64,000 bases of DNA, from NCBI GenBank assembly GCA_004764695.1, contig SMSO01000006.1, positions 848,859-912,858 of the forward strand, in the 5' to 3' direction. This DNA comes from Schizochytrium sp. TIO01 (taxonomy: Eukaryota > Sar > Bigyra > Thraustochytrida > Thraustochytriidae). Position numbers and translations under genes: made by a program. Each line of letters begins with the position of its first letter. Positions within the stretch are counted from its first letter, which is position 1. Of the stretch, positions 42,552-62,500 are shown one piece after another. The notes under the pieces were generated by a model, which made no database searches, was not told where the DNA came from, and was given only the letters and a program-made list of their open reading frames with translations.

Positions 42552-44006
42552 GGTGTCTAATAATATATTGAAATACAGCAACAGTAAACTATCTCAACCT
42601 GCAAGACCTGCCCTTTCCAAGGCTCTAAACAACTGCTGCGTAGTTAACCGTGTTTAGTCTCCGCGGATTGTCCCTTATACAGAAGACAAGGCTATCGCTC
42701 AGTATGCCCTTGGTTGGCAAGTCTTCTCGCGAAGTTCACCAAATTCGTGAACAATCGAAAGCAGTGACACTTAATATGCACGCGAAGGGGGGCAACTCCT
42801 CGCAGGTGTCTTGGGGGATAGAACTCAACACTATGTAGGTCGCTACCTTCAGTCTCTAGGAATAGAGCTGTGCAAGAGAAATGGAATTGATGCACCGCCC
42901 CGGTGTCGGGTTTTCTTGTGTGATGTGTCCTCCTTAATCTCTTTGAAAATAATCTGAATAAAGAAAATACCGTAAACACCTTAATTCAAACGGAACATTT
43001 TGAACACCTTAAATGTTTATCCTGCTGTACCAGAAATTCATTTCATCAGTTTGTTGCTTGCTATAACGGCACGAGATGACTTCTTTAAAGGCTTTTAAGT
43101 TTGACCTCTTAGAACATTGTGTAGTTTGTGGGGTGTTTATGTGCTTCGCTTTTCATGTGCCCTTTTAGTAGATTTGAGAGGCGATTTAGGGAACTTGAGT
43201 TTGACAAAAATGCAGTAGCAAAATTGCTGCGAGCACTCTTTTAGCGTAAGCATTCATTTCCACAAGGTAGCTAGCTATAGATTCATACAAGCACGAAACT
43301 GCTATATCTTTATGAATGCCGTATAAAGTCGTTGTTAAACGAATCCGGATATCAGCCCTTCTTTAGCTTAAATAAGTATTTTGCAAAGACAGGATTTGAT
43401 GGCAGTCGCGTACCTTAATCCCGCGCTTTCCTTCGTATCTGTCATAATTATCTCTAGGAAAAGAAATAAACCAGACATATCGGGGCAAAGCACCGCCTAT
43501 TTGGTAAACCCGAGTTATGATTCACTACTCTTCACAAGAATCAGTTTGCATAAAAGCTCCGTGCTTGTCAATTCAAGATCGGGCATTGCTTGTTATTTAC
43601 TCTAAGCTACGCAATTTCTTCCATTCCCAGCGAAGTCTCTCTCGGCCAGTCAGGCCAGAACATCTCTTTTCAAGTCTCTCCCACGGCTGGTACTACCTGC
43701 ATCACATATCGAAACCTTCAAATCCTCCAAGACATCGCCCTGTTGCAAAACTCCAAAGCAATAAATAATCCCCACTCATTTCCCAACCTGCGGCAATCCC
43801 ACATCTACCTTCACATATCCCAATCCTCTCTCCACGTTATCCAGCTCGTTTTCCAAGTCCTCCTGCCATTTCAACATACCAATCGATCAATCAGCCTCTT
43901 GAAATTAATCGCCACCAAAATCTCAATCTTCTTCTTCTGTTGGAACCAAAAACACAACGATGGAAAAAAAAAGAAGGCGTAGCCAGTGAGCTTATTAAGG
44001 CCCGTA
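42552..44006. other. Intergenic upstream of UBC7 and downstream of tRNA-Arg copy 1
   Basis: 1.45 kb. No supported gene. The right end carries the oligo-A tract that is the Pol III terminator of the minus-strand tRNA. Confidence 0.55.
43964..43972 (-). terminator. Pol III oligo-T terminator of tRNA-Arg copy 1
   Basis: Nine A on the plus strand, that is nine T on the transcribed strand, 34 nt past the tRNA 3' end. No earlier run of four T lies between. Confidence 0.8.
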
Positions 44007-44078
44007 GTCGCTGAGGAGGGTCGAACTCCTGACTTCTGGATTCGAAGTCCAGCACGCTAACCACTGCGTCACAGCGAC
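44007..44078 (-). tRNA. tRNA-Arg(TCG), copy 1
   Basis: 72-nt cloverleaf with no intron. The 7-bp acceptor GTCGCTG/CAGCGAC, D stem ACGC/GCGT, anticodon stem CTGGA/TCCAG and T stem AGGAG/CTCCT all pair fully. The anticodon loop is CTTCGAA, anticodon TCG, decoding CGA and, with wobble, other CGN codons. The T loop TTCGACC gives a good B box and the D arm a good A box. CCA is not encoded. The gene is identical to copy 2, 640 bp away on the same strand. Confidence 0.98.
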
Positions 44079-44686: not shown

Positions 44687-44714
44687 GTAGCTGATGGGCA
44701 TTTAAGTGCCCTAA

Positions 44715-44786
44715 GTCGCTGAGGAGGGTCGAACTCCTGACTTCTGGATTCGAAGTCCAGCACGCTAACCACTGCGTCACAGCGAC
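44715..44786 (-). tRNA. tRNA-Arg(TCG), copy 2
   Basis: Base-for-base identical to copy 1 over 72 nt, same strand. Flanks beyond two bases differ, so either the duplication is old with conserved RNA sequence, or the copies are homogenised. Confidence 0.98.
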
Positions 44787-59187: not shown

Positions 59188-60291
59188 CTTGATTGAATTC
59201 GGTTTTCCGTGGACAAGCAAACCTCGCGCTCGAATCGACGGCTCCTGAGTTCGCGATCTGCTGCAAAGACAAACAATCGAAAAGGCTAACAAAAGCAAAA
59301 ATTCAATTTGCTTTTGGGGCTTACTTGAACAGTAGTCACTACTAGCACATACTACCTACTAATAGTGCCAATCACTCGCTTCAAGACCTTTAAATGGAGA
59401 CAGAGAGAACGAACTGATCCTTGTTCTGTTAATATGAAAACAGACACTCTCTAAGCATTGAACCGCAAGCGCCGGCGCTGCCAACAATAGAGAACCACGA
59501 GCTACGAGAAATTGAATCACTCAAAACAAAAGAAGAAAACATACTGCCTAGAACGAAACAAACAAAATAAACCAAATCACTGACCCGCTTTGCTTGTCTC
59601 GCTTGTGTTCGTTCATGTTTATGAAGATGTTGCGGAGAATACATTATGAAACCAGAGCCGCCTGAGCCGATCCATGTCGGCGACCTTAGCTCAAGGGAGC
59701 AAGCAGTTTAGAGGGGTGTTGTCTCTTTCAAGTGCCCTCGAATGTAGTAAGTACGGCGGTCTTTTTCATCCTCACAAATGCCGCATGCAGAGTCTATGTG
59801 CCATATAACGAATACAGTAGTGATACAAGAAAAGGAACAAAAAGAACACCTTTTCCAATGATCTATAGTTTTTACATTAAAAAAAGCGCGCGACTTCAAC
59901 TTCAAGTTCTTTAAAAAGAAAAGAACAGAGTCAAATAGAACAAGAATGGAATGAAATGAAATGCAAACCTCATTCTGCAGAACAGGGCTAATGCAAGATG
60001 GCCAAACAAGCGCTGAGACGCCGATGATGTTTCCGAAAAGTCAGAGAGGTGCGGCTCAGAGAAGGGATTGTTCTGTATTGTGTGAGACTCGGTGAAATTT
60101 ACTTCATCATGGCTTCTCATCTCAATAAACTCGTTGCCAAGGTGGAGGGACTAGCATTTTACATGCGAGTAGCTGGAATTCACTTAGAATTCAACCTATA
60201 AACTTTGCAAAGCTTGCATTCCGTATGGTGACAAAGTGAAGCTAAGGCCCAATTGCGGGTTAAAAACTAACCAACAACTCAGAGACAAGTT
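59188..60291. other. Glutaredoxin upstream region and 3' flank of the Fanzor relic
   Basis: 1.1 kb. A cluster of GTAGT/TACCTACTA elements at 59333-59362 lies 150-175 bp upstream of the glutaredoxin start. The part next to 60291 would hold the guide-RNA-like segment of an intact Fanzor element, but I can see no diagnostic structure. Confidence 0.5.
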
Positions 60292-61419
60292 TTAAATCAT
60301 GTCCTTCGATAGGTACCGCAAATGGATGTATCTGGCAGCGTCGAAATCACGATTAGCTACGTGTTTGCGTATTGAGCATTTGAAAACCATGGATACTCTG
60401 AGCTTGTCTTGGATGGTGGCACATTAGCTGTATGCTTTGGAAGTGTAATCCTCTTAGCAAAGAATAAGTTTACACCAAGGAAAAATCTTGGCTTTGTGAA
60501 TGAGCGCTGGACGGGATCGCAAATGACCCCAACGACACATCATTCGAACTACCTTGCTTTTAATCTAGCTTGTGGACTTGTCGACCATCTGGAAGGTTTC
60601 AAATTAGGGTAAAAGAAGAACACAATAGTTTCCATAGAGTCAAAGTGCAACCTTGTGGTGAATCTCGGTAGTATTGTTCTTGAATTTTTAGGAGTGGGCG
60701 TAGGTATGTGATTGTTAAGGCAGTCTTGCCGTTTTTCTTTTGAGCTGGTTTGCCTTGGATTCTGCGCCGATGCGTCGACAGAGTAGAAACGTGGTCATTG
60801 TGTCTTCCCCTGTGCCCCACGCAATGGCCTGTCGTACATGGTCTGAAACGATTACTTTGTCGGAGAAAGTTTTCTTTGCAAAAACGAAAGCTTTTGAGCA
60901 AAAGTGCGGTTTTGCCTTTCATTCTGCTCCTGTCACGCGACCTGACCTCGAAGAGCCGGGATTTGTCGTTCATTGTACGAGATTTGTAAGAAGATCGAAC
61001 GAGAAGTTCCTTTTTGGCGGCTAATTCATCGCTCTTGATTCGACCAGCATCGAAGGCTTTGATAAAAACCAACGATTTCTAAATTACGCACAGCTTGTGG
61101 CACTTCGAAGACCCGTTCTGGCGCATCCGTACTTTCTTTTCTCCATGGCTACCATCGAAAATTTTAGGATTGCCTTCTTCGTCTTTCAGAACTTGTTTCG
61201 TTTTAGGATGCTTCCTGATGCATTCACCTTGATACAGGGCCACCGTTTCGTCTCTACCTTTGCAAAATTATAATAAAAGGCATAACCAATGTTGTAAGCT
61301 CTTCTGGTTACGCCAAAACATGTTTTGAGTTGAGTGCGCTGGTCTTTGATTGGATAAATATGAATCTTACTAGCACGGACTACATTACACTCCCCCTTGG
61401 TCGCCTTGATCGCCTTCAT
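60292..61419 (-). pseudogene. Decayed Fanzor/TnpB-family RNA-guided nuclease
   Basis: Found by reading all minus-strand frames. The N-terminal frame opens at ATG 61419 and contains IHIYPIKDQRTQLKTCFG and RRAYN, the OrfB/TnpB helix-turn-helix signature. In other phases follow FEVPQAVRN (about 61095-61120), FEVRSRDR (about 60930-60955), and the RuvC-I region VIVSDHVR with its Asp codon at 60841-60843. The last 350 bp are in one phase: EIHHKVAL, YGNYCVLLLP, FET (RuvC-II Glu codon 60598-60600), WGHLRSRPALIHKAKIFPWC, EDYTSKAYS, FKC, and NRDFDAARYIHLRYL with the RuvC-III Asp at 60346-60348. At least four in-frame stops and several frameshifts interrupt it, and zinc-ribbon cysteines are lost (CxxC to YSxC and CSIR). 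The order and spacing match Fanzor1 or eukaryotic TnpB; the gene is dead. Confidence 0.86.
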
Positions 61420-62201: not shown

Positions 62202-62500
62202 GCCGGGAGGTTACTCCTGTTACGCCCAATAGGGCGGGTGTGTTTGGGGAAGCGGTTCGAGTCCCAGGGCGTGCCGTGGGAAAGGCGTCGAGACTGCGCG
62301 CACTCTGAGGCAGTTCCCGACAGGGGCACTTCATGTAGGTGGGGTGTCCTGGTCGATAATGAGCAGCGGAACGCGTGAGGCTGGAAACAGAGCAACGAAA
62401 AGCAGGCCTGAGCTGTCAGCAAGTGTAACACGCGGTTGAGTCCGGAACCGGGTCAACATGCTCTGGAATTCATCTGCAACCCCATTTCTAAATCCTTCTT
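62202..62500 (+). ncRNA. Signal recognition particle RNA (7SL)
   Basis: RNA scaffold of SRP, which targets secretory ribosomes to the ER. The 5' end GCCGGG matches the usual 7SL start and opens two small hairpins (GGAG/CTCC and CGCCC/GGGCG) joined by TGTTA, like the Alu-domain helices 3 and 4. A perfect Pol III B box, GGTTCGAGTCC, is at 62254-62264. A long-range helix 5 pairs 62262-62273 with 62457-62468 (11 of 12 pairs counting GU). In the S domain, 62377-62394 reads GAGG-CTG-GAAA-CAG-AGCA: the GNRA-capped helix 8 tip with the AGG/AGCA symmetric loop bound by SRP54, followed by the conserved A-run (62397-62401). A helix 6-like hairpin with loop GACA lies near 62306-62333. Inferred length is about 299 nt. 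The exact ends are estimates. Confidence 0.86.

Follow-up and report, generated by a model that had tools for sequence, protein, structure and literature searches.

Fanzors, the RNA-guided nucleases of eukaryotes, are under study as genome-editing tools, and their descent from IS607 elements of cyanobacteria is currently being debated. Among the closest described systems are the cyanobacterial pro-Fanzor IS607 elements (Yoon et al. 2023, PMC10711439), in which a nuclease with DPG and an alternative Glu accompanies an IS607 TnpA; both residues are presented in the main text of that paper as Fanzor2 fingerprints. The family reported here shares these features, with a core identity of 33-44%, and the same +1 overprint on tnpA was found here in the cyanobacterial elements. 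However, the pro-Fanzors are bacterial and lack the ~40-residue insert of the eukaryotic protein. The elements ACa-1, ACa-2, CRv-1, and ISvMimi (Bao and Jurka 2013, PMC3627910) are also alike, since their main-text description gives Fanzor2 with an IS607-like serine recombinase and no TIR or TSD. The mimivirus Fanzor2 L79 (PDB 9b0l) was the best match in both sequence and fold; it has an SWY motif before its HTH, and the identity is 26-28% over the aligned parts. Ordinary IS607 elements have the same gene order, tnpA-tnpB, and their two orfs "often overlap" according to the IS607 passages of PMC6188088, but the overlap was 0-28 bases in all 16 cyanobacterial controls with an identifiable tnpB, and in 24 controls the +1 frame of tnpA had a mean of 16.2 stops past base 99, whereas the frames here are nested.

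Overlap of IS607 ORFs is itself already published. Full nested overlap in pro-Fanzor/Fanzor2 elements with dual-coding constraint was not found described: the words "overlap" and "frameshift" occur nowhere in the main texts of PMC3627910 and PMC10711439, and no report of a lineage-specific nested overlap with such constraint was found in the literature searched, with subscription papers and supplements lying mostly outside the search. Our main reading, to which we give a probability of about 0.86, is that the genome carries an IS607-type element encoding TnpA, Fanzor2, and a probable 3' guide scaffold, in which the Fanzor2 frame (+1) overlaps all of tnpA and both frames are constrained.

The window is the whole stretch of Schizochytrium sp. 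TIO01 DNA that was analyzed, 64,000 nucleotides long, and the assembly that holds it comprises 64.06 Mb in 37 contigs. The features found in the window are as follows.

~60179-61418, minus strand: decayed, 5'-truncated Fanzor2 (IS607-type) element, found by DNA homology to genome copies from ~61418 downward
61288..61377, minus strand: HTH_OrfB_IS605 remnant of the Fanzor core (PF12323, E 2.6e-6, 27.2 bits, cut-off 21)
60325..60474, minus strand: Zn-ribbon/RuvC-III remnant (TNB domain) with two in-frame TAA (PF07282, 27.8 bits, cut-off 26.3; G000:C5:909183-909332 in genome coordinates)
60292..60294, minus strand: stop codon of the ancestral Fanzor frame (TAA, following ...RYLSKDMI), aligned with intact copies
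60179..60291, minus strand: 3' non-coding relic, a candidate guide-RNA scaffold, with the right end ...TTCTAAGTG; part of an alignment that includes 34 further 3' regions, and of the hairpin 1 count
62202..62486, plus strand: SRP RNA gene, a neighbour outside the element (RF00017, 92.8 bits, gathering 70)

An earlier note on this DNA had claimed a fossil Fanzor at 60292..61419 next to the SRP RNA gene. The fossil was borne out, since the TnpB Zn-ribbon and HTH profiles both scored above their cut-offs in the interval, the latter on the TnpB-type HTH signature that the note had pointed to. The blocks WGHLRSR...KAKIFPWC, EDYTSK, and NRDFDAAR that it had picked out could be aligned by tblastn to an intact relative (E 1e-47), and the same alignment showed the reading frames to be broken, as described there. 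The limits given in the note missed the 3' end: homology continued to the right end near 60179. Alignment of window 60179-61418 with the Fanzor half of the element gave a score of 295.5, whereas the highest of 60 shuffles reached 19.5; the homologous part corresponds to element bases ~781-2206, and the aligned blocks shared 62% and 66% identity with the L029 element. Three RuvC acidic positions had been claimed: two of them, the alternative Glu and the RuvC-III Asp, remain, but the RuvC-I Asp (DPG) belongs to a segment of ~130 bases (element ~1366-1498) that is deleted, so that the two flanking blocks abut. The tnpA half was missing from the remnant (score 13 versus a shuffled maximum of 15), and the nesting of tnpA within the nuclease frame was therefore invisible from the window alone. 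The remnant is a dead Fanzor2 copy of a eukaryotic IS607-type element. The SRP RNA gene does lie ~780 bases from it, but the adjacency looks coincidental. Elsewhere in the window there were two tRNA matches of equal score, ~700 bases apart (44006-44078 and 44714-44786, minus strand).

The note had also allowed for intact relatives elsewhere in the genome, and open-frame copies were found. The protein search of the genome returned at least 90 matching stretches, several per copy. A full-length Fanzor frame (661-682 codons) was present in 13 of the 19 near-complete young copies examined (L029, L030, L032-L038, and L040-L043), and tnpA was also open in eight of these. The other five (L032, L033, L035, L037, and L041) had a stop in tnpA at element base 613, which was silent for Fanzor, the changed base being a third position that created no Fanzor-frame stop. 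The elements were ~2.2 kb long with sharp ends, and the relatives shared 91-99% protein identity; from this identity and the open frames we infer that some of them may be active.

The elements could instead be dead passengers whose nuclease has no function in the host, a reading that we consider improbable. The many decayed copies fit it: the Fanzor frame was broken in L039, L044, L045, L047, and L048, and L031 was 5'-truncated. However, most young copies kept the full-length frame, and so did five of the six copies with the tnpA stop at 613 (the sixth, L044, had lost the Fanzor C-terminal end). In addition, the silent rate in the Fanzor core was about twice the replacement rate. The copies with the transposase stopped but the nuclease frame retained are natural contrasts that the genome offers.

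The family is a Fanzor2 in an IS607-type element with a serine-recombinase TnpA. An intact copy contained DPG in RuvC-I (IALDPGVRSF) and the alternative RuvC-II Glu six residues ahead of the Zn finger (E-SYTSKT-CNEC), while the canonical site was Pro, as inspected by eye. The resolvase search of the genome gave 27 places, 25 of them inside Fanzor copies, and the protein encoded there matched the IS607 transposase family NF033518 with 144.9 bits (cut-off 110). Its five matches in the PDB were serine-recombinase catalytic domains, mostly named IS607-type. For the nuclease, the best PDB sequence match was mimivirus L79 (E 2e-18). The fold search ranked the mimivirus Fanzor2 (E 3e-14) ahead of a TnpB (E 4e-13), with SpuFz1 at E 1e-5, on a low-confidence structure model (mean pLDDT 55.7, residues 1-161 below 50). 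The NCBIfam guided_TnpB model gave 94.7 bits, slightly below its cut-off of 100. The note had suggested a Fanzor1 profile, but Fanzor1 was ruled out by the two Fanzor2 fingerprints, the IS607 TnpA, and the poorer SpuFz1 fold match. In a core tree of 31 tips, the eukaryotic and pro-Fanzor proteins were monophyletic with weak support (0.573), and the eukaryotic ones were nested inside (0.908). In the TnpA tree, the pro-Fanzor and eukaryotic TnpAs were not monophyletic. The TnpAs of four cyanobacterial IS607 elements (L119, L125, L133, and L134) fell inside the pro-Fanzor TnpA group despite having no overprint; partner exchange, loss, or a long-branch effect are possible causes.

The ends of the elements were inspected by eye and no TIR was seen; Helitron or TIR transposon ends had been considered by eye as well, and were dropped once the PF00239 matches fell within the element. 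For one insertion compared with two paralogous empty sites, removal of the element left a gapless junction alignment, with no target duplication. Junctions were counted in 16 of the 19 copies (L031, L040, and L044, with a truncated or low-complexity end, were left out): AG was present at all 16 right junctions and at 14 left ones, and CAG at 13 left ones. In both empty sites the crossover dinucleotide was AA instead of AG.

In the intact element, tnpA lies at bases 115-813. The Fanzor frame, which is tnpA +1, stays open over bases 107-2095, so that it spans all of tnpA and ~230 Fanzor2 codons are overprinted on the transposase gene. The probability of an open +1 frame given the TnpA protein was 0.007 when its own codons were shuffled and 0.0011 under host codon usage. 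Variable third positions numbered 61 of 230 in TnpA versus 223 of 426 in the Fanzor core (p 3e-10). Substitutions that are silent for TnpA but change Fanzor occurred at a rate of 0.056, in comparison with 0.111 for silent substitutions in the Fanzor core and 0.116 in the 5' leader. In the most diverged relatives, L052 and L053, divergence in 100-base bins was 30-41% in the leader, 4-15% in tnpA, and 7-35% in the core. The overlap/core divergence ratio was 0.47 in L052, 0.45 in L053, and 0.26-0.58 in the 13 further copies that had 60 or more differences in the core; the value predicted for two constrained frames is 0.53.

The codon phase of the differences was analyzed in nine diverged copies covering most of tnpA. 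TnpA codon positions 1 and 3 differed almost equally, as two-frame constraint predicts, and in every copy a model with constraint on TnpA alone fitted less well, by 2 to 8 log units; all nine share the L029 branch, and the comparison includes neutral decay. A model with no constraint fitted the phase data equally well or better in five to seven of the nine copies. Although the phase shares alone do not separate constraint on both frames from its absence, the reduced rate and the stop counts do. Both frames look to be under purifying selection. A chance open +1 frame was rejected on the synonymous-shuffle probabilities, the cyanobacterial nesting, and the stop counts in 22 of 22 versus 0 of 24 elements that are given below.

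Scanning of 386 cyanobacterial genomes gave pro-Fanzor matches (E <= 1e-20) in 27, and 32 loci were read, 21 of which had a usable tnpA (19 genomes; L078/L103 and L085/L104 are same-genome pairs). Of those dropped, tnpA was broken or short in L072, L073, L084, L092, L101, and L102, no tnpA match was present in L080, L082, L094, and L099, and L090 was a same-frame artefact. In 18 of the 21 loci, the nuclease frame lay in tnpA +1 over 85-100% of tnpA. The remaining three (L077, L083, and L093) had the same open stretch, with +1 stops (single or clustered) near the start only, and a nuclease frame broken downstream. The 21 loci together with one eukaryotic copy (L029) were compared with ordinary IS607 tnpAs of the same phylum, which were 24 of 30 NF033518 loci (L121 was broken, and L126, L127, L129, L131, and L132 were of pro-Fanzor type). 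Past base 99 of tnpA, 22 of 22 Fanzor2/pro-Fanzor elements had zero +1 stops, whereas this was true of 0 of the 24 controls. Two +1 tryptophans were present in 22 of 22 elements, and in one of 24 controls each; the TnpA residue beneath was V in 16, L in 5, and M in 1 at one column, and L throughout at the other. Of the 35 cyanobacterial pairs listed, 34 were less divergent at the third positions of TnpA than at those of the core, the exception being the close pair L095/L097. No nesting was found in the 16 ordinary cyanobacterial IS607 elements with an identifiable tnpB, a count that excludes 14 of the 30 loci (five DPG-type and nine without an identified tnpB) and includes L111, L118, L123, and L125, whose nuclease frames of < 300 codons may be broken, with the stop counts unaffected.

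Each of the 18 nested loci of cyanobacteria had a nuclease ATG in frame, 10-127 bases past the tnpA start as assigned, and in five of them an SD-like stretch preceded this ATG. In the eukaryotic element, the TnpA ATG at base 115 is in strong context (AAAATGG), and the position of the Fanzor-frame ATG varies between copies (ATG239 in 13 of 20, ATG299 in 19 of 20); with these ATGs following the strong TnpA ATG, leaky scanning or internal initiation would be needed. Programmed frameshifting that yields a TnpA-Fanzor2 fusion, in place of separate starts, is an alternative that we regard as rather unlikely. The nuclease core was in tnpA +1 in 20 of the 21 cyanobacterial pro-Fanzor loci (in L093 it was +2 after a break), so that a single shift could fuse the two. 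However, a late shift needs no open frame through the whole of tnpA, the in-frame ATGs are there in every nested cyanobacterial locus, and the tnpA-less viral-contig locus L171 has its own Met before the conserved motif (L174 has none). With separate starts, a single transcript would give both proteins of the element: translation would begin at the first ATG for TnpA and, for Fanzor2, at an internal ATG that is read in the other frame.

Relatives on viral contigs were retrieved only with a pro-Fanzor alignment query (A5); scans of viral contigs with the eukaryotic protein, its L79 alignment, L79 fragments, and TnpA gave no relatives. The genome-contig search gave 12 loci, and the motif search found DPG in none of them. 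Among the non-redundant viral-contig loci with DPG and a tnpA of at least 150 codons, the nuclease frame overlapped at least 50% of tnpA in 27 of 27 and at least 80% in 20, and only 19 of the 27 had no +1 stop after base 99. The motif SW[YF] was present in 44 of 50 viral DPG loci and missing in six. In the viral loci L188, L191, and L193, which are without DPG, the tnpA overlap was 4-8%; the viral non-DPG group includes L150, L155, L157, and L178, missed by the motif pattern, three of which were called DPG by separate scoring. Two viral-contig loci with no tnpA match kept the module, as KSPYWTDK...NSWFT in L171 and VTPYWDDF...GSWFS in L174, with 25 and 17 stops, respectively, in the would-be tnpA frame (counted over a stretch that begins 300 bases upstream and ends 40 codons beyond SWF). 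On these comparisons, the overprint arrangement, with its PYW...SW[FY] module, is ancestral, being common to the cyanobacterial pro-Fanzor IS607 elements and their viral-contig relatives, and the transposase gene appears to carry the N-terminal region of the nuclease as a conserved overprint.

It could be objected that the nuclease starts at the tnpA end, as in ordinary IS607, and that the +1 frame is open as a side effect of the codon usage and protein sequence of the transposase. This is very unlikely. Recognised TnpB homology does begin near the tnpA end, no Pfam family was found in the N-terminal region of 19 members, and some elements have in-frame start codons near the tnpA end. The objection is nevertheless strongly contradicted by the +1 frame that is stop-free past base 99 in all 22 Fanzor2/pro-Fanzor elements compared and in no control, by the +1 Trp that is constant where the TnpA residue varies, and by the halving of the TnpA-silent rate; the motif was also retained in L171 and L174, which have no tnpA match, and mimivirus L79 has SWY ahead of its HTH. 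Equally hard to credit is the idea that silent sites of tnpA are constrained by some DNA or RNA feature within the gene, such as transposase binding sites, a promoter, or RNA structure, and not by protein coding, because, although the passages on IS607 ends in PMC6188088 describe several short internal motifs, the conservation here is ~700 bases long with one frame kept stop-free, W and SW[FY]S in that frame are kept across cyanobacteria and a eukaryote, and the 5' leader itself evolves fast.

If the overprint is true, gene calls that place the Fanzor2 start near the end of tnpA would be truncated, and constructs cut in this way would lack a conserved module. The transposase-nuclease partnership would be hard-wired, and a long same-strand overlap conserved from cyanobacteria to a eukaryote would offer a testable case for the organisation of translation. 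A more tentative proposal, which we hold at somewhat less than even odds, is that overprinting of IS607 tnpA created the PYW...SW[FY] module and locks TnpA and the nuclease inseparably together, with tnpA-less L171 and L174 marking an escape route. Such a lock, if true, would account for the fact that Fanzor2 has remained with IS607, whereas many transposon superfamilies captured Fanzor1, which is free of it.

The earlier note had proposed a search of the 3' flanks of intact copies for a conserved guide-RNA scaffold, and a conserved 3' region was found. In four copies the fold z of the 3' region was -3.5 to -5.5. Hairpin 1 had 88.2% of 365 cells paired, in comparison with 28-47% for slid controls, and its covariation was not above the shuffle control. 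RNAalifold on a gappy alignment of 35 3' regions returned just one 5-bp hairpin. This structured region is a candidate guide-RNA scaffold. In the mechanism that we propose, TnpA would move the double-stranded element by crossover at the AG dinucleotide. Fanzor2, loaded with an RNA that continues from the right end into flanking sequence, would recognise and cut the emptied donor site beside the CAG-like motif, and repair of the cut site would restore the element.

Several other features of the copies were observed. Two old copies, L049 (G000:C30:9282600-9284000) and L050 (G000:C31:7639700-7641100), had the same internal deletion (element ~516-1711) and kept both end regions; they are taken as a MITE-like non-autonomous derivative that may carry the scaffold only. 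In L039, an 11-base direct repeat (AAGAAACAAAT) flanked the copy on both sides and the left end was shortened, unlike in other copies, perhaps through a repair-mediated origin. Older Fanzor-element fragments lay beside younger or other copies at L036, L042, L046, and L048, and insertions may cluster. An insert of ~295 bases with CCTAA-like repeats near the 5' end was common to L033, L035, L037, and L044, all of which have the TnpA stop at 613.
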